Below the pieces are notes generated by a model. That model was not told the origin of the DNA, did no database searches, and worked only from the letters and a program-made list of their open reading frames with translations. Positions 5,845-37,704 of a stretch of DNA of 64,000 bases are shown here, one piece after another. Positions within the stretch are counted from its first letter, which is position 1; each line of letters opens with the position of its first letter. The stretch covers positions 62,001 to 126,000 of the forward strand of contig NZ_JARWSK010000001.1 in assembly GCF_031081985.1 (NCBI RefSeq). The letters run 5' to 3'. This DNA is from Komagataeibacter xylinus (GTDB taxonomy: Bacteria > Pseudomonadota > Alphaproteobacteria > Acetobacterales > Acetobacteraceae). The position numbers and the translations under genes were made by a program.

Positions 5845-5877
5845 GGGCTTATGGCTGTATGGCTGGTGTATTGTATT

Positions 5878-10710: not shown

Positions 10711-10799
10711 GACCGGATCCTATGACACCTCACGTTCCGTGACGACCTGACATTTGGGGCAGATGCCCGTGTCAAGACCCTGCTGTCATGCCCGAAACT

Positions 10800-10930: not shown

Positions 10931-11165
10931 CAGGGCACGTGCCGGGCGCTGGCCGGTTTCCTGCTGTGGCAGGGTCTGCCGGGCGGGCACGGTGGGGGAG
11001 GCAACGTGCGGGATTGTCGTGTTTCGGCCAGATAGGCGTCCGTCCAGGGCAGGCGCGCGGCGTGCCGGCGATCTGTGTGCTCCAAATCAGCCCGGTCAGG
11101 CGCCATCCCGCATTACTGCACCAATCAGGCATGCAAGTACATAACACCCTCTGGCTATGCCGCGC

Positions 11166-12290: not shown

Positions 12291-12511
12291 GCGATTCATT
12301 CCTGTGTTTGCCGCAGTCCTGAGTGCCGCCATGACATCATCAAGGTCAGCACGATAGAAAAAAAATGTAGTGTTCCGTCCCGGCCATCGGGCACAAAGGC
12401 GCGTCTTTGCAATATCTGGCAAGGTTTCTGGCGTATCGCGATGCTGTATCCGGCCCGCCAGTTTGCGCCATGGGGGCAGCATCGCGGTAAAAAGCGATTT
12501 TGGGTGCCCCG

Positions 12512-21067: not shown

Positions 21068-23077
21068 GTGTTGCAATTACTTAAAATAATGATGGATTCC
21101 AACATGCCCCTCCTTATTTCTGCCCTCATCGTGTGTATCGCGGGTTCATGGATCACTGTCCGCATCATGGCGCGCATTGCCGCGACCCCGGGGCGGCAAA
21201 ATCATTCATGGTACCTGCAATGCGCGGCCGCAGGGGCCACAACCATATGGTGCACCCACTTTCTGGCACTGCTGGCATATATGCCGGGCGTTGCGGGCCT
21301 TCTGAATATTCCGCTTACGCTGTTTTCGTTCATCGTTGCCGCCGCAGGCGTGCTGGCGGCAACCGTCATCGCCACCACCAGCAAAAGCCGGATGGGGCCA
21401 GCACTTGGTGGCGCCGTGCTTGGTCTTGCCATTGCAGGCATGCATTATTCCGGCATGTATGCCGTGGAATTTGGCGAGCATATGGCCTGGAGCCTGCCCA
21501 CAATCGCGCTCTCCCTGTTTCTGGGCACCATTTTTGGCACGCTGTCCCTCCAATGCCTGCTGCGTAGCGGGAACCGGCATCGTGAAATTCTGGCCACGGT
21601 GCTGTTCGTCGCGGCGATCGCGGGGCTGCATTTTGTCGGTGTGTCCGCCATGCGCACGCACATGATGTCCGCCGAGCTTATGGCAACTGGCAATGCGCCT
21701 GTCGTGCTGGGTGTTGCGCTGGCCATTACGACCCTTCTGCTCGTGGCCACAGGTGGCAACAGTTTCTCGATCGATGATGCGACGCGCGCGGAATCCTATG
21801 AGCGCATGCGGCAGATGGCGTTGCATGACGCCCTGACAGCGCTCCCCAACCGCGTGAGCTTCAACGATCACCTCGATCAGGTGATCGAGGATGCGAAAGA
21901 GAAGGGCACACAGTTCGCACTGATCGGCATTGATCTTAACAAGTTCAAGGAAATCAATGACGTGCGAGGGCATGCCGCAGGCGATGTCGTGCTGGTTACC
22001 ATTGCCAACCGTTTTACCGAGATGCTGGGTGAGGGCGAGTTCGTGGCCCGTCTGGGTGGGGATGAATTCGCAGCAGTCCACCTGACGAGTGACCCCGATG
22101 AACTCAATGCCTTTGTCGCCCGCATCGAGGAAGCCATCAACCTGCCCATCCCGATCGAGGACTACGAAGTCACGACCGGCGGCAGCGTGGGCCTGGCCCT
22201 GTTCCCCAAGGATGCTACCGACAAGGAAACGCTCGTAACCCGCGCCGACCTTGCCATGTATCGCGCCAAGGCGGATCCGTTGCGCACCGTGGCCTATTAC
22301 GAGCCTGCTATGGATGAAACGGTGCGCGAGGCCCGCGCGCTGGCGGCGGACCTGAAAACGGCAATGGAAAAAGGTGAACTGAGCCTGCACTACCAGGTGC
22401 AGACTGCCATTGCGACGGGTGAGGTCTTTGGCTACGAGGCCCTGCTGCGCTGGAGCAGCCCCGAACGCGGAGACGTGCCGCCAGCCCTGTTCATTCCTGT
22501 CGCCGAGGAGAACGGCCTCATCATCCCGCTCGGTGAATGGGTATTGCAGACGGCCTGCGCACAGGCGGCGAAGTGGGATGTTGCGTGCAAGCTGGCGGTC
22601 AACCTGTCTCCGGTGCAGTTCTTTCACCCTGATCTGTATCGTCTGGTCAAGGAAACGCTTGAAAATACCGGCCTTTCTCCCGACCGGCTCGAGCTGGAAT
22701 TAACGGAAACGTCCATTATCGAGGACAAGCAGCGCGCGCTTGAAATCGTACGCCGGATCAAGGAACTCGGCGTTGGCATTGCACTGGATGATTTCGGCAC
22801 GGGCTATTCGTCGATTGATACACTGCGCTCCTTCCCGTTCGACCGCATCAAGCTTGATGGCAGTTTCATGCAGGGGATCGAAACCAATTCCGATGCAGCT
22901 GCCATTGTCCGTTCGGTCCTGGCGCTCGGCCGCACCATGAACATTGCCGTGCTGGCGGAAGGGATCGAAACGCCCCGGCAGCTTGAAGTTCTGCGTGGCG
23001 AGGGCTGCGTGGCGGGGCAGGGGTTCCTGATCGGCCGCCCGGCCTGCCCGCAAACACTGGGGCTGCAACCGGCCTGA
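21068..23077 (+). CDS. MHYT-GGDEF-EAL c-di-GMP metabolism protein
   Basis: A 669-residue protein. Residues about 10-230 are an MHYT membrane sensor with the repeated motifs WCTHFLA, GMHYSGMYAVEF and GLHFVGVSAMRTHMM, proposed to bind a metal and sense a diatomic gas. A GGDEF domain follows with an intact active site (GGDEF 330-334) but no RxxD inhibitory site at the usual place. Then comes an EAL domain with EALLRW (457-462), ELTETS, DDFGTGYSS and EGIET, so both cyclase and phosphodiesterase could be active. Start is GTG at 21068. It is 82 bases upstream of a second GGDEF-EAL gene, so co-transcription is likely. Confidence 0.92.
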   Translation: MLQLLKIMMDSNMPLLISALIVCIAGSWITVRIMARIAATPGRQNHSWYLQCAAAGATTIWCTHFLALLAYMPGVAGLLNIPLTLFSFIVAAAGVLAATVIATTSKSRMGPALGGAVLGLAIAGMHYSGMYAVEFGEHMAWSLPTIALSLFLGTIFGTLSLQCLLRSGNRHREILATVLFVAAIAGLHFVGVSAMRTHMMSAELMATGNAPVVLGVALAITTLLLVATGGNSFSIDDATRAESYERMRQMALHDALTALPNRVSFNDHLDQVIEDAKEKGTQFALIGIDLNKFKEINDVRGHAAGDVVLVTIANRFTEMLGEGEFVARLGGDEFAAVHLTSDPDELNAFVARIEEAINLPIPIEDYEVTTGGSVGLALFPKDATDKETLVTRADLAMYRAKADPLRTVAYYEPAMDETVREARALAADLKTAMEKGELSLHYQVQTAIATGEVFGYEALLRWSSPERGDVPPALFIPVAEENGLIIPLGEWVLQTACAQAAKWDVACKLAVNLSPVQFFHPDLYRLVKETLENTGLSPDRLELELTETSIIEDKQRALEIVRRIKELGVGIALDDFGTGYSSIDTLRSFPFDRIKLDGSFMQGIETNSDAAAIVRSVLALGRTMNIAVLAEGIETPRQLEVLRGEGCVAGQGFLIGRPACPQTLGLQPA

Positions 23078-23159: not shown

Positions 23160-25409
23160 ATGAACAAGTTGCTCCTTACCTCGTCCTCCCCGAAGCCTGT
23201 ATTGTCGGGTGATGCCGCCCTGGCTCTGCTGATTGACGCGACCGAAGCGATCATCGTGACTGACGACCGCAATGACGTCCTCTTTTTCAATAAAGGGGCG
23301 GAAAAACTCTGGGGTTACGCGCAGGATGAAGTGCGTGGCCAGAACGTGCGGATGCTGATCCCCGATTTTGCCCGCCATGAACACGATGCCCCTGACGCCG
23401 GCCGCCGCGCGACGGGTCTCGACGCCACCGTTGGCACATCGCGCGAAATCATCTTCGAGAACAGGCACGGTGACTACATCACCGGGGAACTGACGCTCTC
23501 TTCAAGCAAGGTCGGCCCGAAAGGCAGCACGTACTATCTTGCCTCCATCAAGGCGGTAACGGAAGAAAACCATCGCAAGAAACTGCTGGACCTGCAGAAT
23601 ACGGTGTTCCAGTCCCTCTCAACCGATATGCAGATCCAAGATGTGGCTGACCTTGTGTGCCGGGAGGTGGAAAACTTCATTCCCAATACGGTCGCCATCC
23701 TTGTCCTGATCGATGAGGACCACCGGCTTCATGTCCTGTCAGGCCCCGGCCTGCCACGGCGCTATGCCGCGGCACTCGAAAACGTAACACTTTCCGATGC
23801 GGACATCATGGCCCTGTCCAATGACCTTGACGAGGCGGCGACCGTTGTATGGGAAAGTTACCGCTCGCTTGGCGTATCGCTGGGCCTGCATGATTGCTGG
23901 GCCTCTGCAATCAAGGCCAGCAATGGCAAGATATCGGGCATATTCGCGCTGTTTTCACGCAACACCAGCACAATCAGCGACTGGCCACAGAAAATCGTGG
24001 CGGGCTGCGTTCCCTTCTGCAGTGTGCTGATCGAGCAGTATGAAGCGCGTCACCATATTTCCCAACTGGCCAATTACGACCCGCTGACCGGCTTCCTGAA
24101 CCGGACCGCCATCCATAAAATTCTCAGGAACCTTGTTGGCAAACCGGGTGACAATCATTTCGCCGTGCTGATGCTCAACCTCGACCGCTTTCGCGATATC
24201 AACGATGCGCTCGGGCACAGCAATGGCGATGACTTCCTCAAGGCCGTGGCGGCGCGGATCAAGAGCCTGTGCCGGAGCCATTACATCCTCAGCCGCGCGG
24301 GCGGGGATGAGTTTGTCATCATATTGCCCGATACACAGGCTGTTCCTGCCACGGCATTTGCCGAGCGACTGATCAAGGGCATGGAAGACCCCATCGAGAT
24401 TGGTGGCAACTTCATCACGGCATCGATCAGTGCCGGAATCAGCATGTTCCCTGAAAACGGGCCGGACAGTGAATCCCTGATCGGCCATGCTGAAGCCGCG
24501 ATGCGCCTTGCCAAGAAAGATGCCCGCGGCACGTTCCGCGTCGCGACGCCAGAAGACCATGCCGCGGCACAGGACCGCCTTGTCCTTGGCTCCGCCCTGC
24601 GTGATTCACTGGCGAAGGGATTGCTCAACCTGCATTACCAGCCGCAGATCGAGGCCAAGACGGGCGCGCTCTATGGCGTGGAGGCCCTGTCGCGCTGGCA
24701 TCATCCGCATCTGGGCAATATCTTCCCCTCCCGGTTCATTGCGGTGGCCGAGGATACCGGGCAGATCGAGGCGATCGGCGCGTGGTGCCTCGAAGAAGCC
24801 TGCCGCCAGATCGTGGCATGGGACCGCGATGGGGTCATGATCCCGGCGGTATCGGTCAACCTGTCGGCCGGGCATTTCCGCAAACGTCAGTTGCCCGAAA
24901 TGATCTCGAACCTGCTGACCCGCTTCGGCATTGCCCCGGCGCGCCTTACGGTGGAAATTACCGAAAGCGTGATGATGGATGAAAACAAGGATACGATGGA
25001 CGTATTACACGCCATTCGTGCCCTGGATGTTGGCCTGTCCATGGATGATTTTGGCACGGGCTACTCATCGCTGTCGCGGCTGACCCGCCTGCCGCTGACG
25101 GAAATCAAGATTGACCGCAGCTTCATCATGAACCTTGAGCATGACGCCAATGCGCAGGCGGTGACAACGGCCGTGATTGGCATCGGCAACCGCCTGGGCA
25201 TGACCGTCGTGACAGAAGGGGTGGAGACGGAAGCACAATACGCGCTTCTGGAAAGCCTGCACTGTGATGTCATGCAGGGCTATCTGTTTGCCAAGCCCAT
25301 GGCGCCAAAAGATCTGGAAACATGGTTCAGGCAGCCCCGCAAGATCATGCCTGCAATGCGCAGGGCGTGCGGGGAACAGTCAGCATCCGGTCAGGCTGAA
25401 AAGAAATAA
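23160..25409 (+). CDS. PAS-GAF-GGDEF-EAL protein, DosP/AxPDEA1-like, probable haem sensor
   Basis: A 749-residue cytoplasmic protein. The PAS domain (about 15-130) aligns with that of E. coli DosP through LFFNKGAEKLWGY and MLIP. The residue matching the haem ligand His77 is His75, while the distal Met95 position is Thr93. A GAF-like region (about 150-300), a GGDEF domain with intact GGDEF (381-385) and no RxxD site, and an EAL domain (EAL 508-510, DDFGTGYSS, EGVET) follow. AxPDEA1 of Komagataeibacter xylinus is an oxygen-sensing c-di-GMP phosphodiesterase acting on cellulose synthesis; a similar role is likely here. The alignment was done by eye. Confidence 0.9.
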   Translation: MNKLLLTSSSPKPVLSGDAALALLIDATEAIIVTDDRNDVLFFNKGAEKLWGYAQDEVRGQNVRMLIPDFARHEHDAPDAGRRATGLDATVGTSREIIFENRHGDYITGELTLSSSKVGPKGSTYYLASIKAVTEENHRKKLLDLQNTVFQSLSTDMQIQDVADLVCREVENFIPNTVAILVLIDEDHRLHVLSGPGLPRRYAAALENVTLSDADIMALSNDLDEAATVVWESYRSLGVSLGLHDCWASAIKASNGKISGIFALFSRNTSTISDWPQKIVAGCVPFCSVLIEQYEARHHISQLANYDPLTGFLNRTAIHKILRNLVGKPGDNHFAVLMLNLDRFRDINDALGHSNGDDFLKAVAARIKSLCRSHYILSRAGGDEFVIILPDTQAVPATAFAERLIKGMEDPIEIGGNFITASISAGISMFPENGPDSESLIGHAEAAMRLAKKDARGTFRVATPEDHAAAQDRLVLGSALRDSLAKGLLNLHYQPQIEAKTGALYGVEALSRWHHPHLGNIFPSRFIAVAEDTGQIEAIGAWCLEEACRQIVAWDRDGVMIPAVSVNLSAGHFRKRQLPEMISNLLTRFGIAPARLTVEITESVMMDENKDTMDVLHAIRALDVGLSMDDFGTGYSSLSRLTRLPLTEIKIDRSFIMNLEHDANAQAVTTAVIGIGNRLGMTVVTEGVETEAQYALLESLHCDVMQGYLFAKPMAPKDLETWFRQPRKIMPAMRRACGEQSASGQAEKK

Positions 25410-25477: not shown

Positions 25478-26680
25478 TTACTTCAGTCCGTCCACAAAGG
25501 CTGCGATCCGGCGGCAGCCTTCGCGCAGGGTATCCGTGTCGGTGGCGTAGGAAATGCGGAAGAACGGGCTCATGCCGTAGGCAGCGCCCTGCACGGAGGC
25601 AACCTGCTGCTCTTCAAGCAGGGCCATGACAAAATCGGCATCGGTTGCAATCAGGCGGCCACCGGCCGAAGTCTTGCCCATGCAGCCACTGATGTCGGGA
25701 TAGACATAGAACGCGCCCTGCGGCGTATGGCACTGCACGCCGGGAATGGCATTGAGCAGGGAAACCACCAGGTCGCGCCGGGCCTGGTATTCGGCAGCGC
25801 GGTCCTTGAGGAAGTCCTGCGGGCCGTTCAGCGCCGCGACCGCAGCCGCCTGCGCCAGCGTGTTGATGCCGCTTGTGGACTGGCCCTGCATGTTGTTCAT
25901 GGCAGCGATCAGCGCGCGCGGGCCACCGCAATAGCCAACGCGCCAGCCCGTCATGGCATAGGCCTTTGACACGCCATTGACGGTCAGCACCCGGTCCTTC
26001 AGGCGCGGCTCGACCTCGGCGATGGTGCAGAAGGTGAAGCCGTCATAGATCAGGTGCTCGTAGATATCATCGGTCATGATCCAGACCTGCGGATGCTTCA
26101 TCAGCACGGCGGCAATGGCTTCCATGTCCGCGCGCGGGCAGCACGCGCCGGTCGGGTTGCCGGGGAAGTTGAGCACCAGCCACTTGGTCTTGGGTGTAAT
26201 GGCCGCCTCAAGGGCCGCGGCCGAGAGGCGGAAGCCGCCTTCGGCAGGGCAGGGCACGGACACGATGGAGGCCCCGGCAAGGCGGGCGATATCAGCATAG
26301 CTGATCCAGCTCGGCGTGGGCAGGACCACCTCGTCACCGGGGTTGATCGTCGCCATCATGGCATCATAGATGATCTGCTTGGCGCCGTTGGCCACCAGAA
26401 TTTCGTTCAGGGCGTAATCAAGGTTATTTTCACGCTGGAACTTGGCCTGGACCGCTTTTTTCAGCGCGGGCTTGCCGTCCTGCGGCGGGTATTTGGTATC
26501 GCCCGCGCGGGCTGCGGCAAAGGCTGCATCCACCACATGTGTGGGCGTGGGAAAGTCCGGCTCGCCCGATGACAGGCTGATGATCTTCACCCCTTCAGCC
26601 TTCAGTGCCGATGCCTTGTCGGTCATCGCGGCGGAAGCCGAAATCCCAATTCCATTCAGTCGATCAGCAAACCCGGGCAT
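25478..26680 (-). CDS. Class I aminotransferase, aspartate aminotransferase type
   Basis: A 400-residue PLP enzyme with the family motifs SSGEPDFPTP, NGAKQ, NFPGNPTG (Asn175), DDIYE, the PLP-binding Lys239 in NGVSKAYAMTGWRVGY, and a C-terminal FRISYA carrying the substrate Arg. It matches the Ib-type aspartate/prephenate aminotransferase group. GGAG lies ten bases before the ATG. It closes a leftward series (pxpB, pxpC, pxpA, DMT, MFS) that handles 5-oxoproline and probably glutamate, for which a transaminase makes metabolic sense. Gaps of 140 bases make one transcript uncertain. Confidence 0.92.
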   Translation of the reverse strand: MPGFADRLNGIGISASAAMTDKASALKAEGVKIISLSSGEPDFPTPTHVVDAAFAAARAGDTKYPPQDGKPALKKAVQAKFQRENNLDYALNEILVANGAKQIIYDAMMATINPGDEVVLPTPSWISYADIARLAGASIVSVPCPAEGGFRLSAAALEAAITPKTKWLVLNFPGNPTGACCPRADMEAIAAVLMKHPQVWIMTDDIYEHLIYDGFTFCTIAEVEPRLKDRVLTVNGVSKAYAMTGWRVGYCGGPRALIAAMNNMQGQSTSGINTLAQAAAVAALNGPQDFLKDRAAEYQARRDLVVSLLNAIPGVQCHTPQGAFYVYPDISGCMGKTSAGGRLIATDADFVMALLEEQQVASVQGAAYGMSPFFRISYATDTDTLREGCRRIAAFVDGLK

Positions 26681-26820: not shown

Positions 26821-28074
26821 TCACCCGTCCATCCGGATGGGGTTGCGCACCATGGCGAGTGACAGCCCGGCTGCAACGAGCAGGGCGGCAGCGCACATGT
26901 ACCATGCCATGTCAAAACTGCCGGTCCATGACACGATGTACCCGGTCAGGATGGGCGAGAGCAGCCCCAGCGAGTTGCTGCATGTCAGGGTGACACCTGT
27001 TACGGCGCCCATTTTGCTGCCGTCTTCCACCATGTCGGTCAGCAGCGCGGTATTGGCGCCATTGGCCGCCATCAGGCAGGCCAGCGCACCAGACAGCACC
27101 AGCAGGATGGGCATCATGGTGTGAAAATGCGGCAGCAGCCCGATCGTGGCGGCACCGAGCAGGCAGGTTGCAACAACAAAACGCCGGTTGGGCGGATGAA
27201 TGCCCCTGCGAAAGACCAGATGTTCGAGAATGCGCCCGATAACCACCGCGCCAATGGCTGCGGCCAGATAACACAGGGCCGTGCTGTTGCCCGTGCCGGT
27301 CGTGTTGATGTGCAGTTCATGGATCAGGTACAGCGGCATCCATGACATGACCAGAAAGTTCAGGTAGTTCTGGGTGCACTGCACTGCCAGTATCCCCAGA
27401 AAGGAGGATGAGCGGAACAGGTTCCTGATCTCGCGCACGGCAATCGGCCTGCGCGGGGCGGCATCGGGCTTTTCCTTCGGGTTGCGGTACACCAGCCACC
27501 ACACCAGCGCCCAGCCGATGCCTATGGCGCCAAGCGCCATGAACTCGCACCGCCAACCGAAGAATGTGATCAGGTATGCCCCCGCAATCGTGCCGCCCGC
27601 CAGGCCAAGCTGCATGCCCGTGAGCAGCATGGTCATGACCGATCCGCGTTCGCGCGGCTGCGCCCAGTTGCGCACCACCGTGGCCCCCACGCCAAAGGTC
27701 GGCGCCTCACCCACGCCAAGCAGCACGCGGGTCATCAGGAACTGGGTAATGTTCTGCGCCATGCCGCCAAGCAGCATGGCAAATGACCATACGCCCACGG
27801 CAAGGCTGCCAATCGTGCGCGCGCCAACCATGTCGAGCACGATGGTCGAGGGCAGGTTGAGCAGGAAATACGACCACAGGAAACTCGACGAGACCCAGCC
27901 CATCTGCACCGGTGTCAGCGAAAACTCCTTGCCCATCGTGGGCAGGGCGATGGAGAGCGCCGCGCGGTCGCCATAGCTGATGGCGTACATCAGGAAGACA
28001 AGAAAGAAGAACACGTAGCGGGCAGGAATTGCGCGCCTGCTCCGGGCGTCGGTGGTCATTTCACCTGTTGTCAC
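26821..28074 (-). CDS. MFS transporter, anion:cation symporter (ACS) type
   Basis: A 417-residue, 12-helix transporter with ACS-family sequence: YGDRAALSIALPTMGKEF in helix 1, WVSSSFLWSYFLLNLPS, RVLLGVGEAPTFG and NWAQPRERG. ACS members carry organic anions such as glucarate, galactonate and tartrate. I prefer the GTG at 28074, which has AGGAG nine bases upstream; an in-frame ATG at 28098 lacks a ribosome binding site. It lies downstream of the DMT and pxp genes and could import a carboxylated substrate used by them, e.g. an oxoproline-like compound; this is inference. Confidence 0.87.
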   Translation of the reverse strand: MTTGEMTTDARSRRAIPARYVFFFLVFLMYAISYGDRAALSIALPTMGKEFSLTPVQMGWVSSSFLWSYFLLNLPSTIVLDMVGARTIGSLAVGVWSFAMLLGGMAQNITQFLMTRVLLGVGEAPTFGVGATVVRNWAQPRERGSVMTMLLTGMQLGLAGGTIAGAYLITFFGWRCEFMALGAIGIGWALVWWLVYRNPKEKPDAAPRRPIAVREIRNLFRSSSFLGILAVQCTQNYLNFLVMSWMPLYLIHELHINTTGTGNSTALCYLAAAIGAVVIGRILEHLVFRRGIHPPNRRFVVATCLLGAATIGLLPHFHTMMPILLVLSGALACLMAANGANTALLTDMVEDGSKMGAVTGVTLTCSNSLGLLSPILTGYIVSWTGSFDMAWYMCAAALLVAAGLSLAMVRNPIRMDG

Positions 28075-28142
28075 GCTGTAGGACTCCTGGTGTGCCATGA
28101 ATTACGGGAGGGGAGGGGACGTGCGGCGGTGGCGTGCCGCGA

Positions 28143-29075
28143 TCAGGGCGGGGTGCCGGTGGCCGCATCCATCGTGCCTTCCGCCACCACTTTCTGCCTG
28201 GCCGGGCAGTCGCTGCGCAGCATCCACACGCCGGAGCCAATGATCAGCAGCCCGCCAATGGCCATGGCGATGCCGGGTATCTCGCCAAACCCGAACCACC
28301 CGATCAGCGCGGCCCAGAGCAGCCCGGAATAGGCAAACGGGCCAATGGCGGAGACCTGCGCCGAGGCGAACGCCTCGGTCTGGAGCACCTGCGCGATACC
28401 GGCGAAGGCGCCCACGGCAACAAGGCAGCCCGCTTCGGTCAGGCCGGGCGTGGTCCAGATGAAGGGTAGCGGCAGCGCGGTCATGACGGTCATAAGGATG
28501 GCCTGCCACAGGGCGATGGTGGTGCTGGATTCCGTAGCCGAAAGCTGGCGGATCTGCATGGTGGTCAGCGCGCCGACAGCCCCCTGCGCCAGGGCCACGA
28601 AATACGCCCAGCTCGGCACGGCAGCGCCTGTTGCGCCGTGGCCATGCAGCAGCCCCTTGCCAAGGGCCACCACGATCACGCCCGAAAACCCGATCGAGAC
28701 CGCAACCCAGCGCTGGAGCGAGGGCCGTTCATGCAGCAGCGGGATCGAGAGCAGGACGAGGAACAGCGGCTGCGTGTAGGACAGCACCTGCTGTTCGGCC
28801 AGCGGCAGGCGGGTCACGGTGATCACGACCATGATCATGCTGATCAGCCCCACGACCGAGCGCAGGACATGACCGCCAAAATGACGTGTTTTCAGGACAA
28901 TGCCCGAGCGCGAGGCAATCAGCAGCACGAAGGGCAGCGAAAACAGGTTCCGGAAGAAAATGATCTCGAGCGCAGGAAGCGTGGAGCCGGTCAGTTTCTG
29001 CAGGGCATTGAGGGCAGCGGTGAAAAATGTTGCCGATGCCAGAAGAAGGGCACCACGTTTCAGGTCATGCTTCAT
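28143..29075 (-). CDS. DMT-superfamily (EamA) transporter
   Basis: A 310-residue protein with ten membrane helices and two EamA repeats. It begins MKHDLKRGALLLASATFFTA, has FFRNLFSLPFVLLI in helix 2, and a C-terminal helix GIAMAIGGLLIIGSGVWML. Related to RhaT/YdcZ-like exporters of metabolites. It lies between pxpA (175 bases upstream) and the ACS transporter (about 70 bases downstream) on the same strand. It is not closely similar to the DMT gene at 5878-6813. Confidence 0.85.
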   Translation of the reverse strand: MKHDLKRGALLLASATFFTAALNALQKLTGSTLPALEIIFFRNLFSLPFVLLIASRSGIVLKTRHFGGHVLRSVVGLISMIMVVITVTRLPLAEQQVLSYTQPLFLVLLSIPLLHERPSLQRWVAVSIGFSGVIVVALGKGLLHGHGATGAAVPSWAYFVALAQGAVGALTTMQIRQLSATESSTTIALWQAILMTVMTALPLPFIWTTPGLTEAGCLVAVGAFAGIAQVLQTEAFASAQVSAIGPFAYSGLLWAALIGWFGFGEIPGIAMAIGGLLIIGSGVWMLRSDCPARQKVVAEGTMDAATGTPP

Positions 29076-29250
29076 TTTATCCGTACCTCAATGCACGACA
29101 GGGATGGCGGCGCGCTTCATCGATCAATGCTGCCAGATGCCCCCACGTGCTTCATGTTACGACACCGTAACGCAGGAGGCGGATTCCGGGTCATAGGCGT
29201 TCGTTGCGGTGCGATAGAAAATTCTTATGGGTAGCGGGCGGCCCCGCTGC

Positions 29251-30012
29251 CTAAAGCTGGCAGGCGGGGGTCAGCACGCCGCCACTCGCCTCGATTTCCG
29301 CGCGGATGGCGCGGGCGAGTTCCAGCGATCCGGGTGTGTCGCTGTGCACCAGAATGGACTGCGCCCTGACCGGCAGGCGCGCGCCGTCAATGGTCGTGAC
29401 CGATCCGTCATCCAGGAACTGCTTCACGCGCGCACGCACGCCCGCCAGGTCATGGATGACAGCACCCGGCTGCCCACGCGGCACCAGCGTGCCGGCTGTG
29501 GTATAGGCACGATCAGCCAGGAACAGGGTCTGGGCCCGCAGGCCGGCCTTCTCGGCAGCGCGTTCGGTCGCCTGGCCGGGCATGCAGAACACGCTCAGGT
29601 TGCGGTCAAGAGCCGCGATGGCGCGGGTCAGGCGCAGGGCAAGGCCCTCATCCGCATTGGCCATGTTGCCAAAAGCGGCATGGTAGCTGACATGCGTGAC
29701 CCGGTGGCCGTGGCGGGCGGCGATGCCCTGCAGCGCGCCGATCTGGTAGCACATCATGGATTCCATATCCGCGTCGGATACGGCCATGGTGCGGCGGCCA
29801 AAGCCCATCAGGTCGGGCAGGCCGGGATGGGCGCCAATGCCCACGCCCTTTTCCTTCGCCAGCCGCACGGTGCGGTCCATGATGGCGTAGTCACCGGCAT
29901 GGAAACCACAGGCGATGTTGGCTGACGAGACGGTGTCCATCAGCCCGTCATCATCAGCGATGCGCCAGCGGCCAAAACCTTCGCCCATGTCGGAATTGAG
30001 GTCGATCTTCAT
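29251..30012 (-). CDS. pxpA: 5-oxoprolinase subunit PxpA (LamB/YcsF family)
   Basis: A 253-residue LamB/YcsF protein beginning MKIDLNSDMGEGFGRW, with NIACGFHAGD and KEKGVGIGAHPGLPDLMGFGRR, the metal-site region of the family. With PxpB and PxpC it forms the prokaryotic ATP-dependent 5-oxoprolinase, which opens 5-oxo-L-proline to L-glutamate. Its ATG overlaps the stop of pxpC (ATGA), and pxpC in turn overlaps pxpB, so the three are translationally coupled. The biotin carboxylase genes directly across the divergent promoter suggest a further link (see findings). Confidence 0.94.
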   Translation of the reverse strand: MKIDLNSDMGEGFGRWRIADDDGLMDTVSSANIACGFHAGDYAIMDRTVRLAKEKGVGIGAHPGLPDLMGFGRRTMAVSDADMESMMCYQIGALQGIAARHGHRVTHVSYHAAFGNMANADEGLALRLTRAIAALDRNLSVFCMPGQATERAAEKAGLRAQTLFLADRAYTTAGTLVPRGQPGAVIHDLAGVRARVKQFLDDGSVTTIDGARLPVRAQSILVHSDTPGSLELARAIRAEIEASGGVLTPACQL

Positions 30013-31019
30013 GCCTTGGCTCCAGATTTCATGCCAGCGCGGCAGCGGGCGGATGAGCGGTAACGGGCAACCAGCGTGCGCAGGTCGTCAAGATAGGCAT
30101 TGACTGGCTGCATGGCGGCAACGCCTTCGGCAAAGCTGCATTCATGCAAACGGATGCGCATGCCGATGCGCGCCTGCGCCAGCCGCCACAGATCGGCTTC
30201 GATCACGGTGGCGATGCGCGGATAGCCACCCACGGTATTGGCATCAGCCAGTTGCACGATCGGCTCGCCCGCGGGTGGAACCTGCACGAGGCCCGCAATC
30301 ACGCCATAGGAGCGCAGTTCAACCCGGTGGCGCAGTTCAAGCGGGGTGCCCGACAGGCGGTAGCCGACGCGGTTGCTCTGTGGCGTGATGCGCCATGCGG
30401 TTTCCCACAGCCGCTTCTGGGCTTCGGGCGTGAACAGGGCGTAGTCGGTTGCGGGCAGGGCGCGCAGGTGAATGACCTTGCTGTCCTGCGCTTCAGCCAC
30501 GGCATCGAGCGCCGAAGCGGGGGGCAGGGCGCCGTAGCCCGCTATATCCAGTGTCGTGCCCGTGGTGCCGAGCGTGTCGCCTGCTTCCAGCGGGCGACCG
30601 TCCAGCCCGCCAAAGCTGCCACGGAGCTGGGTGCTGCGCGAGCCCAGAACGACCGGCACCTCAATGCCGCCTGCAAGGCAGATATAGCCGCGCGCGCCCG
30701 CCTTGGGCGGCCCGATGCGCAGCACCTGTCCCGCAGCCGCCGTCTCGACCATCCAGGGCAGGACCGTGCGGCCATCAAGTTCGATCAGGGCGTCGATGCC
30801 CGTCACCGCAAAGGTGGCGGGGGCGTCAAAGCGCAGCACGAAGGGATAGGTCTGCAGTTCGATGCAGGCATCATCGATCTGGTTGCCCAGCAGGATGTTG
30901 CCGACCTGAAGCGCAAGCGCGTCCATGGCACCCGACGTGCCCACGCCCAGGTTGCGGTAGCCGGGGCGGCCGAGATCCTGCACCGTGTTCAGGGCCGATG
31001 TTTCAAGGATCGTAATCAC
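30009..31019 (-). CDS. pxpC: 5-oxoprolinase subunit PxpC (KipA/biotin-dependent carboxyltransferase family)
   Basis: A 336-residue protein with the family start ITILETSALNTVQDLGRPGYRNLGVGTSGAMD, LEL-like ELQTYPF, VGYRLSG and the Gln-Leu-Ala-Asp segment (IVQLADANTVGGYPR). PxpC/KipA is homologous to one half of the carboxyltransferase domain of urea carboxylase. Coupled to both neighbours by ATGA overlaps. It works with PxpB as a heteromer in 5-oxoproline cleavage. Confidence 0.94.
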   Translation of the reverse strand: MITILETSALNTVQDLGRPGYRNLGVGTSGAMDALALQVGNILLGNQIDDACIELQTYPFVLRFDAPATFAVTGIDALIELDGRTVLPWMVETAAAGQVLRIGPPKAGARGYICLAGGIEVPVVLGSRSTQLRGSFGGLDGRPLEAGDTLGTTGTTLDIAGYGALPPASALDAVAEAQDSKVIHLRALPATDYALFTPEAQKRLWETAWRITPQSNRVGYRLSGTPLELRHRVELRSYGVIAGLVQVPPAGEPIVQLADANTVGGYPRIATVIEADLWRLAQARIGMRIRLHECSFAEGVAAMQPVNAYLDDLRTLVARYRSSARCRAGMKSGAKA

Positions 31020-31648
31020 AGTTCGATGCTTTCGGGGTAAAAGCGGATGCGATCGCCAACGGCAAACAGGGCGGGGGGCTGTTTGTGGGGGTCGAACAGG
31101 CGCAGGTCGGTAAACCCGATGGAATTCCAGCCGTTCGGCCCCGTCAGCGCGGAAATGCCCGCCTGCATGCCGCCAATGATGACGGTCCCGGCCTGCATGT
31201 TCAGCGACGGCACGGTCTTGCGCGGCGTTGCGATGCGGGGGTCAAGCCCATGCAGGTAGCCAAAGCCCGGCGCGCTGCCAATGGCGCAGACCGTGTATTC
31301 GCTGCCGTGATGGATGGAAATGACATCCTGCGCGGACAGGCCCGAATGGGCGCAGACCGCTTCAAGATCCTCGCCCAGCGCGCCGCCATAGCGCACGCCG
31401 ATCTCGAACAGATGCCCCTCGATATGCCGCTCGGGCAGGGTGTTCCAGGCATGGCACAGCCACTCCGCCACGGCCTGCGGGCGCTCGGGCGGGGCGGAAA
31501 AGATCAGCATGAGGTTGGTCACGCCGGGAATGAGTTCGAGCACGTCGGGCCGCGCCTGTGCCGCATCCATCAACGCCCAGACCCGGCGCTGGTGGGCCAT
31601 GGTGAAATCACCGGGCGCCTCGAACAGCATGGCGCGCGTGCCGATCAT
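31016..31648 (-). CDS. pxpB: 5-oxoprolinase subunit PxpB (KipI/allophanate hydrolase subunit 1 family)
   Basis: About 210 residues with PxpB/KipI hallmarks: VRYGGALGEDLEAVCAHSGLS, HHGSEYTVCAIGSAPGFGYLHGLDPRIATPRK (the conserved GFAPGFxYL-type segment) and AGTVIIGGMQAGISALTGPNGWNSIG. First gene of the coupled pxpB-pxpC-pxpA group. The start is uncertain: the frame is open to a TTG at 31726, but the ATG at 31648 fits the family length better; neither has a clear ribosome binding site. KipI is homologous to the other half of the urea carboxylase carboxyltransferase. Confidence 0.92.
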   Translation of the reverse strand: MIGTRAMLFEAPGDFTMAHQRRVWALMDAAQARPDVLELIPGVTNLMLIFSAPPERPQAVAEWLCHAWNTLPERHIEGHLFEIGVRYGGALGEDLEAVCAHSGLSAQDVISIHHGSEYTVCAIGSAPGFGYLHGLDPRIATPRKTVPSLNMQAGTVIIGGMQAGISALTGPNGWNSIGFTDLRLFDPHKQPPALFAVGDRIRFYPESIEL

Positions 31649-32026
31649 GTTTATGGCAGGCGCCGCAGTCGTATCGCGCGCCACATCGTTCTTTATATCC
31701 GTGTTCAAAATACACAGTCCCTGCAACGGCGCCGGTTATTGAGCCTGAACCGTAACAATATAGGTTTCGTGGCATGAAGTGCCAGATGCAAGAGTATGAC
31801 CGTTCACGTAACGATGGCCAGTGCGATTATGGTTGTGAGGCTATTGAATAATCTTATGGCTCAGCATGATAGCCGGGCCATCATATTATGTTATGGCGTG
31901 AGAACGAAGTGCTCTTGGCACTTGTTGTCCGTGGTCGTTAGCATAAAAATCAATAGCTGAGCATCCGGTATCCGTTGTGGGGCCGGGTGGTGTTAGTTTC
32001 TCTGTCCACGATCGGGTTTTCTTACC
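31649..32026. promoter_or_regulatory. Divergent promoter region between pxpBCA and the SDR-accBC operon
   Basis: About 300-380 bases separate the two operons. The hexamer TTATGG occurs three times (31827, 31854, 31891) on the plus strand, and again at 37722 in front of the Nac-like LysR gene. These may be parts of LysR-type sites shared by the two operons. No clear -35/-10 pair was identified. Confidence 0.35.
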
Positions 32027-32782
32027 ATGAGCAACCAGCCGTACCGTACCGCCCTCGTCACTGGCGCTTCTTCTGGCATTGGCGCGCAGATCGTGCGCCG
32101 CCTGGCGCAGGAAGGGATCGAGGTTCATGCCCTGGCGCGTGACGCGGCCCGGCTGGAGCAGCTGTCGAAGGAAACCGGCTGCGTCGTGCATGCCGTCAGT
32201 GTATCTGACCAGGCCGGGATCGAGGCGCTGGTCAAGACGCTCGAGATCGACATCCTGGTCAACAATGCCGGGCAGTCGCGCACGGGCAACATCACCAACA
32301 CCACGCCCGAGGATATCGATGCGCTGGTGGATGTGAACCTGCGCGCGGTGCTGCAACTGACCCGGCTGGTGGTGGCAGGCATGATCGAGCGTGATCGTGG
32401 CCATATCGTCAACATCACCTCCATTGCAGGCCATTATGCCTTTGCTGGCGGCAACACGGTCTATCATGCCACCAAGGCGGGCGTGCATTCGCTCTCGCAG
32501 CAGCTGCGCTGCGACCTGTTCGGCCACCGCATCCGCGTGACCGAAGTCTCGCCCGCGCGTTGCGAAACCGAGGTGTTCGGCCGCCTGATCGGCAACATGG
32601 AAGAGGCGAAGAAGCGTTTCTTTGATGAATATGAGTCCCTGCTGCCCGAGGATATCGCCAATTCCGTCGCCTTCGCCGTCATGTCGCCGCAGCGCATGAA
32701 TGTCAGCTTCATGGAAGTGCTGCCGACCATGCAGGTCGTGGGCGGCCTGAACTTCGCCAAAAAGACATCCGGCGCGGCGTAA
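32027..32782 (+). CDS. Short-chain dehydrogenase/reductase (YdfG-like)
   Basis: A 251-residue SDR with TGASSGIGAQ at the N-terminus, NNAGQSRTGN, catalytic Ser in NITSIAGHYAF, YHATK (Tyr/Lys pair) and EVSPARCETEVF. It resembles NADP-dependent 3-hydroxy acid dehydrogenases such as YdfG. First gene of a rightward operon: accB begins five bases after its stop. The substrate may be a hydroxy acid related to the carboxylase that follows, but nothing in the sequence fixes this. Confidence 0.9.
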   Translation: MSNQPYRTALVTGASSGIGAQIVRRLAQEGIEVHALARDAARLEQLSKETGCVVHAVSVSDQAGIEALVKTLEIDILVNNAGQSRTGNITNTTPEDIDALVDVNLRAVLQLTRLVVAGMIERDRGHIVNITSIAGHYAFAGGNTVYHATKAGVHSLSQQLRCDLFGHRIRVTEVSPARCETEVFGRLIGNMEEAKKRFFDEYESLLPEDIANSVAFAVMSPQRMNVSFMEVLPTMQVVGGLNFAKKTSGAA

Positions 32783-32787
32783 GAACA

Positions 32788-33228
32788 GTGGATCTCACGC
32801 ATGTCAGGCGGCTGATCGACCTGCTGGCCACGGCTCCGGTTACGGAGCTGGAGGTCGAGGAGGGCGGCTGCCGTATCCGCATCACCCGTGGCGGCGGCGC
32901 GCAGCCTGAGGTTGCGCCATCCGCCCCGGCCGCCGTGGCGGCTCATGCGCCCGTAGCGGCGGTGGCAGCGCCAGCCGTAGCGCCTGTGGTGGAGGAGGCG
33001 GTCATTGCCGCCCCGTCCTACGGCGTGTTCCATCTCTCGCCCGCGCCGGGAGCGCCGCCGTTTGTTACGGTGGGGCAGGACGTGCAGGCCGGGCAGGAAG
33101 TGGGGCTGGTCGAGGCGATGAAGGTGTTCAACGCCGTCCGTGCCACACAGGCTGGCAGGATTGCCGCCGTGCTGGTGGAAGACGGCACCGAAGTGGAGGC
33201 AGGCACCCCCCTGTTCCGGCTGGCATGA
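32788..33228 (+). CDS. accB: Biotin carboxyl carrier protein
   Basis: A 146-residue AccB-type carrier: an N-terminal helical region (about 1-40), an Ala/Pro/Val-rich flexible linker (about 42-75), and a C-terminal biotinyl domain with VEAMKV, where Lys112 is the biotin attachment site. GTG start. It overlaps accC by four bases. It carries CO2 from the biotin carboxylase to a carboxyltransferase. Because this accBC pair lies beside pxpBCA rather than with accA/accD, it may serve a dedicated carboxylase rather than fatty acid synthesis. Confidence 0.92.
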
Positions 33229-34592
33229 GTGAGACCCCACGTTTCAACCGCGTGCTGATCGCCAATCGCGGCGAGATTGCACTGCGCATCCAGCGCGCCT
33301 GCCGCCAGCTCGGGCTGGAGACGGTGGCCGTGTATTCCGAAGCCGATGCCGACAGCCGCCATGTGCACGAGGCTGACGTGGCCCTGTGCATTGGCCCTGC
33401 CGCTGCGGCCCGCAGCTATCTCGACCCCAACGGGCTGCTGCTCGCAGCCCGGCTGACCGGGGCGCAGGCCATTCACCCCGGCTACGGCTTCCTATCGGAA
33501 AATGCTGATTTTGCCGACGCGGTGGAAGAGGCGGGCCTGACCTTCATCGGCCCGACTGGGGCTTCCATCCGCATGATGGGCGACAAGATTACCGCCAAGC
33601 GCGCCATGCGCGAGGCGGGCGTGCCCTGCGTGCCCGGCTCGGACGGGCCGCTGCCTGCCGATATGGATGCCGTGAAGGCCATTGCGCTCGATGTCGGCTT
33701 TCCGGTCATCGTCAAGGCATCAGGCGGCGGCGGCGGGCGCGGGATGCGTGTGGTCGAGCGCGTGGAGGACCTGGCGCAGGCCGTAACGCTGACCGCCAAG
33801 GAGGCCGAGCAGGCCTTTGGTAACCCGACGCTGTATCTTGAGCGCTTCATGCAGAAGCCGCGCCATATCGAAATTCAGGTTCTGTGTGATACGCACGGCA
33901 CAGCACTGTGGCTGGGCGCGCGTGACTGCTCGCTGCAGCGCCGCCACCAGAAAGTGCTGGAGGAAGCATCCGCCCCCGGCATATTGCCCGAGACCATTGC
34001 CGAAATTGGCGAACGTTGCGCTGAAGCGTGCAGGCGTATCGGCTACCGTGGCGCGGGCACGTTCGAGTTCCTGTATGAAGACGGCGTGTTCGCCTTTATC
34101 GAGATGAATACCCGCGTGCAGGTCGAGCACCCGATTACGGAAGAGACAACGGGCATCGACATCGTGGCCGAGCAGTTGCGCATTGCCCAGGGGGCAAAGC
34201 TTGGCATCGCGCAGGCGGATATCGGGCTGCGGGGCCATGCCATTGAATGCCGCCTCAATGCCGAGGATCCGTTCACCTTCATGCCTTCGCCCGGCACCAT
34301 CACGCGCTGGGACCTGCCTGGTGGCCCGGGCATCCGGGTCGATACGCATGTCGTGGCGGGCTACACGGTGCAGCCTTATTATGACTCGCTGATCGGCAAG
34401 ATTATCAGTTATGGCGCCACCCGTGAGCAGGCGATTGCGCGCATGCGCGTGGCACTGGCGGAAATGAAGGTGGAAGGGGTGTCAACCAACATCGCCCTGC
34501 ATCAGGACCTGCTGGCCGACCCCGCATTTGCGCGTGGCGGGGTGGATATCCATTACCTTGAACGCTGGCTTGCAAAAAGGACGGCCTCATGA
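33225..34592 (+). CDS. accC: Biotin carboxylase
   Basis: A 455-residue ATP-grasp enzyme that carboxylates biotin on the carrier with ATP and bicarbonate. It begins with [13 protein letters not shown] and contains [21 protein letters not shown], the glycine-rich ATP loop [37 protein letters not shown] and [14 protein letters not shown]. Length is normal for AccC. It overlaps both neighbours by four bases (ATGA), so the order SDR-accB-accC-carrier-like protein is one operon. Confidence 0.95.
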
Positions 34593-35050
34593 GCAACCGG
34601 TCCGAAACGCTGGTGCCCCATTTTGATCGGCTGCCAGAGCCTGAACAGATTGGCCAGATGGCAACATGGCTGGCGCAGGCAGGGCTTGAAAGCCTGGAAC
34701 TGTGCAATGAGGCGGCGGGGCTGAAACTGCGGATCCGCGTAGGGCAGGCTGCACCTGCGGCAGCCACTTCCCATGCCCCGGCAGTATCGCAGCCGGATGC
34801 CGGGGCCGGACTGGTGGCGGTGAAAACACCGTATTTTGGGCATCTGTGCCTGACCCATCCGCAGCGCGACAGTGCTTTTGCCCCGGTGGGCGCAAAGGTG
34901 GCGCAGGGTGATACTGTAGCGCTCCTTACGCTGGACAGCCTGCAGGTGCCCGTTCCCGCACCGGTAGCGGGCACGGTTGCCGAGGTGACGGGGCAGGCCG
35001 GTGCACTGGTCGGATATGGCACCGCGATCATGCAGATCCAGCCGGACTGA
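34589..35050 (+). CDS. Carrier-like protein lacking the biotin lysine (BCCP paralogue)
   Basis: A 153-residue protein built like AccB: N-terminal helices (about 15-55), an Ala/Pro linker, and a C-terminal lipoyl/biotinyl-like domain (about 78-153). Where the carrier has EAMKV, this protein has a LDSLQV segment; aligning the two domains puts Ser117 at the biotin-lysine position. It therefore cannot be biotinylated by the usual route. Its coupling to accC (ATGA) suggests a structural or regulatory role in the carboxylase complex. Alternatively it is a decaying copy, but the frame is intact. Confidence 0.85.
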
Positions 35051-35198: not shown

Positions 35199-36698
35199 AT
35201 GATTAATATGCCCGCTCCGGCGCGAGATAGCGCGACCTGCACCACAATGGGGCAGGCGGCCCCTGCGGCAGCGGAGAATGGGCAGTTCGGCCCCCGCGTC
35301 GAGCGCGACCTGTTGGGCGAGGTCACGCTGCCGCCCGGCGTGCTATGGGGTGTGCATACCAAGCGCGCGCTGGACAACTTTCCCATAAGCGGCATCACGA
35401 TCGGCAGTTTTGCCGAACTGGTGCAGGGGCTGGTGGTGGTAAAGCAGGCAGCAGCGCGGGCCAATCTCGCGCTGGGCTATCTCGACCCCACGCGTGCCGG
35501 TGCCATTGACGCTGCCTGCCAGCGCATCCTGCAAGATCCCGCCTATAATGCGCAGTTTGTGGTGGATGCCATGCAGGGCGGGGCGGGTACCTCGACAAAC
35601 ATGAACGCCAATGAGGTCATTGCCAATGTCGCCCTGGGGCTGCTGGGCGAAAAACCGGGCGCCTACGGCGTGCTGCACCCCAATGACCATGTCAACATGG
35701 CGCAGTCCACCAATGATGTTTACCCCACTTCGCTCCGCCTCGGCCTGCTGCTTGCGGTTGATCCGCTGCTGGTGGCCCTTGAGGGACTACATGCGGCGCT
35801 GGATGAAAAGGCGGAGGCATTTGACAAGATCCTGAAGGTTGGCCGCACGCAGTTGCGCGATGCCGTGCCCATGACGCTGGGGCAGGAATTCGGGGCGTTC
35901 CGCACGGCGGTAGCGGATGAAATCAGGAGCATAAAGGCCCATGCGGCGGCCTTTGAGCAGGTCAATCTTGGGGGTACCGCCATTGGCACGGGGCTGAATA
36001 CCGACCCGCGTTATGCGCCCATGGTCATGGCGGAGCTGCGTAGCCTGACCGGGCGGCCCATGAGCAGTTCGCCCGACCTGATCGAGGCGACATCGGATGT
36101 GGGGGTTTTTGTGCTGTTTTCAGGCGCGCTCAAGCGCCTGGCGCTCAAACTGTCAAAAATGTCCAGCGATCTGCGCCTGCTTTCAAGCGGGCCGCGCACG
36201 GGCCTGGGTGAAATCGTGCTGCCTGCGGTGCAGGCCGGGTCTTCCATCATGCCGGGCAAGGTCAATCCCGTCATACCCGAGGCGGTCAATCAGGTGGCGT
36301 ATCTGGTGGCGGGCCATGACCTGACCATTACCATGTGCGCCGATGGCGGGCAGTTGCAGCTTAATCCGTTTGAACCGATGATCGGCTATTGCCTGTTTAC
36401 ATCCATCAAGACATTACGCGCGGCCATCGAAACCCTGACCACGCGCTGCATCAGCGGCATTTGTGCTGATCGGGCGCGGTGCCAGGCGCTGTTTGACCTT
36501 AATATCGGCATCATTACCGCGCTGGTGCCGGTGCTGGGATATGATGTCTGTTCGACCCTTGCCAAGCGCGCGCTGGCGGAAGACCGCAAGGTGACGGACC
36601 TGATCGAGGAGGCGCGACTGCTTTCCCCCGAGCAGCTTGCGGCCCTGTTGCAGCCTGCTGCGCTGACCCGCCCCAATATCGGGTGCGTGCCGGTCTGA
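35199..36698 (+). CDS. aspA: Aspartate ammonia-lyase (aspartase)
   Basis: A 499-residue member of the fumarase/aspartase superfamily; converts L-aspartate to fumarate and ammonia. It shows GGAGTSTNMNANEV, the active-site region HPNDHVNMAQSTNDVYPT, GRTQLRDAVPMTLGQEF, and the signature loop GSSIMPGKVNPVIPE, where VIPE favours aspartase over class II fumarase (TQCE). It is about 30 residues longer at the N-terminus than usual. It follows the carrier-like gene by 148 bases and converges with a Nac-like LysR gene. A role in nitrogen release from aspartate fits the neighbours. Confidence 0.92.
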   Translation: MINMPAPARDSATCTTMGQAAPAAAENGQFGPRVERDLLGEVTLPPGVLWGVHTKRALDNFPISGITIGSFAELVQGLVVVKQAAARANLALGYLDPTRAGAIDAACQRILQDPAYNAQFVVDAMQGGAGTSTNMNANEVIANVALGLLGEKPGAYGVLHPNDHVNMAQSTNDVYPTSLRLGLLLAVDPLLVALEGLHAALDEKAEAFDKILKVGRTQLRDAVPMTLGQEFGAFRTAVADEIRSIKAHAAAFEQVNLGGTAIGTGLNTDPRYAPMVMAELRSLTGRPMSSSPDLIEATSDVGVFVLFSGALKRLALKLSKMSSDLRLLSSGPRTGLGEIVLPAVQAGSSIMPGKVNPVIPEAVNQVAYLVAGHDLTITMCADGGQLQLNPFEPMIGYCLFTSIKTLRAAIETLTTRCISGICADRARCQALFDLNIGIITALVPVLGYDVCSTLAKRALAEDRKVTDLIEEARLLSPEQLAALLQPAALTRPNIGCVPV

Positions 36699-36765: not shown

Positions 36766-37704
36766 TTAGCCGAAAGGCTGGGCACCCGGCCAGTTATGCG
36801 AGGCGGCCATGGCCTTGGCGAGGTCGATAAGCAGATCACGCACGGCCACCGACGCCTCGGTTTCTGGAATGATCTCGGGAATGCACAGTGAAACGTCTTC
36901 CTGAATGACGGGGTTGTGCAGCGGAAAGATGCGCGACTTGCCCGGCACGACAATGCGGCTGGCAACGGACCAGGGCAGGATGGTGCTGCCAATGCCCTGT
37001 TCTATGGCGCCCTGCAGGGTAATCAGCGCCTCGATTTCGGCCACGATGCGGGGTTCAAGCTGCTTGCGTATGAAGGCCATGTCCACGCTCTTGCGGACAA
37101 AATTATGTTTGGGCGGCAGCAGCAGGGGAATGTCGGCTATATCAGCGAGTTGTACGGCCCCTTTTTCATTCTGGGGAAATTCCAGATCATGCGGCGCGAG
37201 CAGGAAGAATTCTTCCTTCATCAGCGGCGTGAAAATAACGCCCTTGATGGGGCCTGCACCATGGATTACGGCCATGTCCAGCCGCCCGGTCATGATCAGT
37301 TCGCTGTATATGTCATCAAAGCTTTCGGTCAGGTGCAGGGTAATATTGGGCAGGCGCTCGCGCACGAGCTGCAGCAGCTTGACCGAAAGCGTGGACCCCG
37401 CGCTGTAGGGGGATAGCCCGACCGAGACCTTGCCCACCAGCGGCCCGGCGCCTTGGCTGATTTCAACCATTGCCCGGTCGAACTGTTTGGTCAGGGTTTG
37501 TGCGTGCCGGTACAGTTCCGCCCCGGCGGTGGTGGGGGTTACGCCGCTTTTGCTGCGGATGACAAGCTTTTGCTTGAAAGCATTCTCAAGTGTGGCGAGC
37601 TGCTGGCTCAGTGCAGGCTGGGCAATATTGAGCAGGTCGGCCGCGCGCGAAATGCTGCCAAGATCGATAATCTTAATAAAAGCCTGTAGTCGGCGTATAT
37701 CCAA
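36766..37704 (-). CDS. LysR-family regulator, Nac/Cbl-like
   Basis: A 312-residue LTTR. The N-terminal winged HTH (MDIRRLQAFIKIIDLGSISRAADLLNIAQPALSQQLATLE) and GVTPTTAGAELYRHA closely resemble the nitrogen assimilation control protein Nac. A periplasmic-binding-like effector domain follows (about 90-300). Convergent with aspA and adjacent to the pxp/acc nitrogen region, so it may regulate these genes; this is inference. A 5-bp dyad lies in its own upstream region. Confidence 0.9.
   Translation of the reverse strand: MDIRRLQAFIKIIDLGSISRAADLLNIAQPALSQQLATLENAFKQKLVIRSKSGVTPTTAGAELYRHAQTLTKQFDRAMVEISQGAGPLVGKVSVGLSPYSAGSTLSVKLLQLVRERLPNITLHLTESFDDIYSELIMTGRLDMAVIHGAGPIKGVIFTPLMKEEFFLLAPHDLEFPQNEKGAVQLADIADIPLLLPPKHNFVRKSVDMAFIRKQLEPRIVAEIEALITLQGAIEQGIGSTILPWSVASRIVVPGKSRIFPLHNPVIQEDVSLCIPEIIPETEASVAVRDLLIDLAKAMAASHNWPGAQPFG

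Follow-up and report, generated by a model that had tools for sequence, protein, structure and literature searches.

The stretch of DNA analyzed here (the window) comprises 64,000 nucleotides of Komagataeibacter xylinus (NCBI RefSeq assembly GCF_031081985.1, contig NZ_JARWSK010000001.1, positions 62,001 to 126,000 of the forward strand), and it carries pxpA, pxpB and pxpC family genes close to others that encode a biotin carboxylase (BC) and proteins related to the biotin carboxyl carrier protein (BCCP). As described in the initial annotation, a minus-strand pxpB-pxpC-pxpA group diverges from a plus-strand group consisting of an SDR-family gene, accB, accC and a carrier-like gene, and the two are separated by a 300-base gap (Table 1). 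The range singled out in that annotation also takes in the MFS and EamA genes downstream of the pxp group, and the aminotransferase gene begins just beyond its edge. The accompanying claim that each group is translationally coupled fits four of the five junctions (pxpB/pxpC, pxpC/pxpA, accB/accC and accC/carrier-like), where the open reading frames (ORFs) overlap by 4 bases; the SDR/accB junction has a 5-base gap. Promoter-like matches in the 300-base gap number one on the plus strand and two on the minus strand; over the whole scanned region four were found against 1.7 expected, which is weak evidence. The family matches agree with the homology of PxpB and PxpC to the carboxyltransferase (CT) part of urea carboxylase, although PxpC falls far below the cut-off of its equivalog model NF045499 (278.4 bits versus 500). 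The BC, CT and BCCP parts are encoded side by side, each by an ORF of its own. From these genes and the comparisons below, we propose that the two divergent operons may encode one biotin-dependent, multi-subunit, lactam-opening enzyme, composed of AccC, AccB, a BADC-like protein and a PxpB-PxpC pair that feeds PxpA, a reading that we hold to be evenly poised between right and wrong.

Table 1. Genes and features of the pxp/acc locus and its surroundings, numbered from the first base of the window
Feature	Position	Strand	Basis
PxpB (CT_C_D), carboxyltransferase-like half	31016..31726	-	TIGR00370 167.0 bits (cut-off 145.55)
PxpC (CT_A_B), carboxyltransferase-like half	30009..31019	-	TIGR00724 295.3 bits (cut-off 230.2)
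PxpA (LamB/YcsF), probable ring-opening hydrolase, conserved residues changed	29251..30012	-	NF003814 332.9 bits (cut-off 226)
Divergent intergenic region, presumed control region	31727..32026	.	300 bases, from ORF positions
SDR oxidoreductase	32027..32782	+	nearest model YdfG, under cut-off
AccB-type biotin carboxyl carrier protein, EAMK biotinylation motif	32788..33228	+	TIGR00531 112.2 bits, just under cut-off 115.2
AccC-type biotin carboxylase, genome's second copy, catalytic residues kept	33225..34592	+	TIGR00514 655.5 bits (cut-off 626.5)
Carrier-like BCCP paralogue without biotinyl lysine (BADC-like, presumably non-catalytic)	34589..35050	+	PF00364 37.2 bits (cut-off 22.1)
Class I/II aminotransferase, conserved partner	25478..26680	-	nearest model PRK06107, under cut-off
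MFS transporter, anion:cation symporter type, possible importer	26821..28098	-	best TIGR00893, under cut-off
EamA/DMT-type transporter	28143..29075	-	family match
Aspartase-subfamily lyase, Komagataeibacter-group neighbour, link uncertain	35199..36698	+	lies between carrier-like gene and LysR gene
LysR regulator, NAC-like, conserved partner	36766..37704	-	304.4 bits versus cut-off 309

A survey of the co-occurrence of pxpABC with accBC, which the initial annotation had called for, revealed that the linkage is recurrent and scattered over the PxpBC tree. Family PF02682 was present in 143 of the 299 Pseudomonadota genomes sampled, and the survey covered 80 pxpB loci, one per genus from the matches listed plus a second locus of one genome, with fused urea carboxylases longer than 1000 residues omitted and four loci shortened by contig ends. 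A BC gene lies in 13 of these 80 stretches (loci L055, L062, L073, L077, L080, L084, L086, L087, L091, L094, L098, L099 and L119), compared with a chance expectation of 0.84 for 80 stretches of 16.6 kb (P about 3e-12). This expectation is based on 95 BC-type matches (E ≤ 1e-100) in about 150 Mb from the 30 genomes first on the list, which are a non-random set, with sizes rounded and summed by hand. Because mostly the best-scoring copy per genus was taken, linked second copies were missed; two of the six second copies retrieved afterwards are linked (L145 and L147), and genome G191 holds another linked copy, L189. Sixteen plasmid loci, chosen by hand and constituting no sample, comprise 11 linked loci and five unlinked ones (L039, L121 in pieces, L123, L124 and L125). 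L121 is a Staphylococcus aureus plasmid record in which the pxp ORFs are fragmented.

The combined PxpB and PxpC tree contains 116 rows (29 linked loci, 14 urea carboxylases and 73 unlinked loci, with L189 left outside it), and with the urea carboxylases set aside the linkage requires at least seven changes on it. The window belongs to lineage a, a group of 15 rows with a Shimodaira-Hasegawa-like approximate likelihood-ratio test (SH-aLRT) value of 99, in which pxpB, pxpC, accB, accC and the carrier-like gene are separate and which is found in Komagataeibacter, Acetobacter, Rhizobium, Sinorhizobium, Bradyrhizobium, Mesorhizobium, Bosea, Terrarubrum and Paraburkholderia, as well as in one record under the name Roseateles, an assignment flagged there as unverified. 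Lineage b (SH-aLRT 100, 13 rows) carries pxpA, a PxpB-PxpC fusion that is split in L091, and a BC-BCCP fusion. Three linked loci stand alone outside both lineages, namely L055, L119 and L122, the last from Lactiplantibacillus plantarum. Lineage a forms one clade in the AccC tree (SH-aLRT 96, 12 rows) and lineage b another (SH-aLRT 100), and the AccC of the window is not closest to the AccC of its own genome; AccC and PxpBC travel together within each lineage. At L128, DUF979, pcp, pxpA, a PxpBC fusion and a BC-BCCP fusion lie in one run (5423-11299), which is likely to be an entire 5-oxoproline route that includes a biotin carboxylase of its own. In L035, a Rhizobium record, accC is present as two ORFs between 6168 and 7552 that are unannotated in the record.

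Two observations that the initial annotation regarded as decisive against its proposal, a neighbourhood that is not conserved and an accBC pair that is the only copy in the genome, were both looked for, and the opposite was found in each case. The closest full-length PxpB matches come from K. xylinus, K. melomenusus and K. nataicola (94-97% identity), and a partial match comes from Novacetimonas hansenii (95%). Of 17 loci retrieved, 15 span the set and the remaining two are its halves on separate contigs of one genome; pxpA, pxpB, pxpC, the SDR gene, accB, accC, the carrier-like gene, EamA, MFS and the aminotransferase are kept in all 15, the aminotransferase being truncated by the contig end in L017. 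An unconserved neighbourhood is ruled out by these loci, and the set also occurs in rhizobia and a Paraburkholderia. In L027, L028 and L030 the aminotransferase gene is located beyond the opposite end of the set. Among the 13 lineage-a loci beyond the window, ten have an aminotransferase of the window type (>450 bits) and an eleventh, L040, is cut by the end of the stretch, compared with 0/13 lineage-b loci and 2/74 other Pxp loci. In the 12 other lineage-a loci checked for further partners, the SDR gene occurs in 11 and a LysR gene (>350 bits) in nine, an MFS gene occurs only in Acetobacter L030 (L126 was outside this check), and no aspartase-like gene was found; the last is missing from the L030 stretch, and an EamA relative occurs in L120 too. 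In Mesorhizobium L040, epoxide hydrolase, Ldh-family and proline racemase-family genes adjoin the set (9622-12916), a possible clue to the substrate, and epoxide hydrolase and Ldh-family genes also lie near L080.

A separate accBC pair was found on another contig of the same assembly, which measures 3.53 Mb and is rated 100% complete. The genome has two stand-alone AccC genes, the window copy and one at C10:293161-294489 that adjoins a lysine-bearing AccB, and this housekeeping pair rules out the window accBC as the sole copy. The two AccC proteins share 57.6% identity, and the AccC model gives three more matches, all of them weak at 26-56 bits, within frames of 1097 and 443 residues. Two Carboxyl_trans matches, which resemble AccA and AccD in their size and in the part of the profile they cover, are located on contigs C11 and C10, so that accA and accD lie outside the window gene set, and the PF02682 gene is present in a single copy. 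No BC domain of a pyruvate carboxylase-type enzyme was found in the genome, where CTs of that type were not searched for. With only AccAD and PxpBC seen as CTs, the likely partner of the extra AccBC is one of these two.

The active site of the window biotin carboxylase is, to judge by its residues, intact, and the biotinylation motif of AccB is present. Ten active-site positions of AccC, which we take to be catalytic or ATP-binding, are invariant in all 61 aligned rows (two genes were entered twice), and an eleventh, H241, is variable, with histidine in 42 of them. At the column of the biotinyl lysine, 32 carriers have lysine, including every lineage-a AccB examined, and 30 lack it, namely all 29 of the 29 lineage-a carrier-like proteins and one of L055, its second carrier. 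Ordinary BCCPs align to a profile of the carrier-like protein along roughly residues 5-151, so that both BCCP parts seem to be present; the direct identity of the protein to the window AccB is 26%, which is not significant alone. At E ≤ 1e-6 this profile has matches in 370 of 389 genomes; most of them are evidently ordinary BCCPs, and the figure is therefore no count of the paralogue. The fourth plus-strand gene presumably encodes a non-catalytic BCCP paralogue that resembles plant BADC proteins, which the available part of PMC11926652 describes as 25-30% identical to BCCP, lacking the AMKL motif, held to aid the assembly of BC with BCCP and unique to the plant enzyme; a rival view given there is that BADC is an inhibitor. 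The window set thus resembles a heteromeric acetyl-CoA carboxylase with plant BADC in having a separate BC, a BCCP and a BCCP-like subunit without the AMK motif, and differs from it in that AccA and AccD are not part of the set.

It is quite probable that these proteins form one functional biotin-dependent unit with PxpBC, whereas the chemistry of that unit, carboxylation of a lactam nitrogen, is a question on which we lean neither way. We infer the assembly of the enzyme, the carboxyl transfer and the substrate as follows. Biotin on AccB would be carboxylated by AccC at the expense of ATP and bicarbonate, and the lysine-less paralogue would bind AccC/AccB and help the complex to form, as is held for plant BADC. 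PxpB-PxpC would then take the carboxyl group off carboxybiotin and place it on the nitrogen of the lactam, making the ring carbonyl easier to attack; PxpA would hydrolyze the ring, the carbamate would shed CO2, and the amino acid released would pass to the linked aminotransferase. The split biotin enzyme working with PxpA that the initial annotation envisaged is strengthened by the recurrent linkage, the fusions of lineage b, a pyroglutamyl-peptidase gene beside some lineage-b loci and PDB entry 9yx5, which contains AccA3 along with 'allophanate hydrolase subunit 2' and '1' (PxpC and PxpB homologues), both present as two chains. This entry is similar to the arrangement proposed here in that a BC-BCCP chain and PxpB/PxpC-type chains occur together, and different in that BC and BCCP are fused in AccA3, a protein that the accessible text of PMC11001197 gives as common to several mycobacterial carboxylases; all that we take from 9yx5 is a hint that CT halves of this kind can sit with a BC-BCCP chain. 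A six-gene operon of S. aureus, published as a regulatory target according to the portion of PMC11315280 available, holds pxpB, pxpC, pxpA, accB and accC; it unites five families of the window set in one operon and has one further gene. An enzyme of PxpBC and AccBC was neither shown nor proposed in the literature searched, a search that left most subscription journals outside.

Several findings weigh against such an enzyme. No BC gene lies near 67 of the 80 sampled pxpB loci, and the lineage-a loci L039 (9589-10134) and L120 (3099-3569) retain the lysine-less paralogue beside pxpBC without an adjoining accBC, the genome of L120 having one stand-alone AccC; in these two a shared AccC may be what the paralogue binds, or the protein may serve another role. 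In the part of PMC13274462 available, pxpABC lacking accBC is reported to be a 5-oxoprolinase that depends on ATP, and phosphorylation of the substrate is the role assumed there for PxpBC. Finally, K1605 of the yeast urea carboxylase, the probable general base of the CT reaction according to the accessible part of PMC5770610, was placed opposite R169 of the window PxpB by hand-counting along the alignment; this column is lysine in 14/14 urea carboxylases and in L119, and arginine in 101 of 102 Pxp rows, the window included. With arginine at this site the window PxpBC is, strictly speaking, no urea carboxylase CT, and this part of the initial annotation's urea-carboxylase-like enzyme is given up. 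The arginine may suit a carboxylate-bearing substrate, or the chemistry may differ.

The initial annotation named 5-oxoproline or a related lactam as the possible substrate, and for lineage a the choice of 5-oxoproline loses ground. PxpA of the window has S109, A112, L163, L165, L221 and S224 in place of K, G, E, F, C and G; those residues are 93-100% conserved in lineage b, in the Escherichia coli-like group and in the rest, and lineage a departs from them. Position 151 of PxpB is S, A or T in all 15 lineage-a rows (S151 in the window) and F in all 87 other Pxp rows. None of pcp, DUF979, DUF1445 and NRAMP, the last named a Mn2+ importer in the available text of PMC10448178, was found near the 13 lineage-a loci or the Komagataeibacter loci, whereas at least one of the four lies near 8/13 lineage-b loci (pcp 3, DUF979 3, DUF1445 6, NRAMP 4) and 23/74 other Pxp loci (Fisher P for lineage a 0.0016 versus lineage b and 0.017 versus the other loci). 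The changed residues, the linked aminotransferase and the lack of 5-oxoproline-associated genes nearby suggest a different, related lactam, and we somewhat favor a lineage-a substrate other than plain 5-oxoproline; judged from sequence, a substituted 5-oxoproline or another lactam is more likely in the window lineage than 5-oxoproline itself, which is the more likely substrate of the fused lineage b. The aminotransferase together with an aldolase would fit a 4-hydroxy-substituted 5-oxoproline. An RraA-family aldolase gene occurs in 4/13 lineage-a loci (a fifth, L034, is cut at the edge) and near L066, L078 and L146, and as a search of the window genome found none, the aldolase idea rests on the rhizobial loci. 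Like the PxpABC 5-oxoprolinase, the window set has PxpA-, PxpB- and PxpC-family subunits encoded by a single operon; it is distinguished from that enzyme by a dedicated AccB, AccC and lysine-less BCCP paralogue, by the altered PxpA and PxpB residues and by the missing 5-oxoproline-associated genes.

The strongest competing explanation is a biotin-dependent carboxylase as proposed here that acts on plain 5-oxoproline in the window lineage too. PxpA and PxpB pass the cut-offs of families named 5-oxoprolinase (TIGR00370 for PxpB), pcp adjoins some loci of the fused lineage, and the window genome has no match to PF02538-type 5-oxoprolinase, so that 5-oxoproline could still be the job of this locus. 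Moreover, lineage-a PxpB is changed at R174, Y192 and G198 as well, but 14, 22 and 23 of the 74 other rows also differ there, and L040, L080 and L126 retain some of the usual residues. This explanation must contend with the residues at which lineage-a PxpA and PxpB depart, with an aminotransferase gene in 10/13 loci and none of the four 5-oxoproline-associated genes near any of the 13, and with a PxpC below its equivalog cut-off, and we regard it as unlikely, if well within reason.

An ordinary ATP-dependent 5-oxoprolinase, beside which the second AccBC and the carrier would form a spare half of acetyl-CoA carboxylase working with AccAD under a regulatory linkage, we consider improbable. It accords with an AccC above the AccC equivalog cut-off, with the one AccA- and AccD-like pair of the genome and with the report of pxpABC working without accBC (PMC13274462, available part), yet it leaves unexplained why the linkage recurs in lineages that are separate and differ in gene order and in fusions, why the window AccC falls into a clade of its own with other pxp-linked AccC proteins and why the set contains neither accA nor accD. 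A split urea- or guanidine-type carboxylase whose allophanate-like product is hydrolyzed by PxpA is very improbable in spite of the homology of PxpBC to the urea carboxylase CT part, since K1605 is replaced by R169 and D1584 by S151 and since the window PxpBC lies outside the group of 14 urea carboxylases in the tree, unlike L119; as a strict urea carboxylase CT the window PxpBC was rejected.

Compared with the urea carboxylase/urea amidolyase KlUA, the locus has the same BC, homologous CT and biotin carrier parts followed by a hydrolase, and differs in that the parts are on separate chains, that the general base is an arginine and that PxpA takes the place of allophanate hydrolase. A third split type is represented by L119 (accB-like gene at 10103-10363, with pxpC, pxpB and accC adjoining) and L189 (7983-11505), whose carriers are short (83-86 residues). 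The PxpB of L119 retains the urea carboxylase lysine and groups with the urea carboxylases (SH-aLRT 99), yet pxpA adjoins, and this locus may encode a true split urea-type carboxylase. Elsewhere in the window, two adjacent genes (21068-23077 and 23160-25409) appear by eye to be of the GGDEF-EAL cyclic-di-GMP-like kind.

More broadly, although we think it less likely than not, PxpB-PxpC pairs could be true carboxyltransferases that N-carboxylate lactams from carboxybiotin for PxpA to open the activated ring, with their own AccBC and a bacterial BADC in some lineages and a borrowed BC in others, the substrate in the window lineage being perhaps a substituted 5-oxoproline. A shared BC encoded elsewhere may serve some lineages, as 9yx5 hints for AccA3, so that a dependence on biotin may have gone unnoticed even in some of the 'ATP-dependent' PxpABC enzymes. 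The window lineage may degrade 4-hydroxy or 4-hydroxy-4-methyl 5-oxoproline, the product passing to the aminotransferase and, in some rhizobia, to the RraA-family aldolase. If this is true, biotin enzymes would gain lactams as a new substrate class, one that to our knowledge belongs to no other biotin enzyme, the annotation of PxpABC would need to be split by lineage, and BADC-like subunits would not be confined to plants. A 2011 study, in the portion available, described paired urea carboxylase CT homologues of unknown function and left their partnership with other BCs open (Lombard and Moreira, PMC3199775); the linkage that recurs lineage by lineage makes that question directly testable in a vinegar bacterium.

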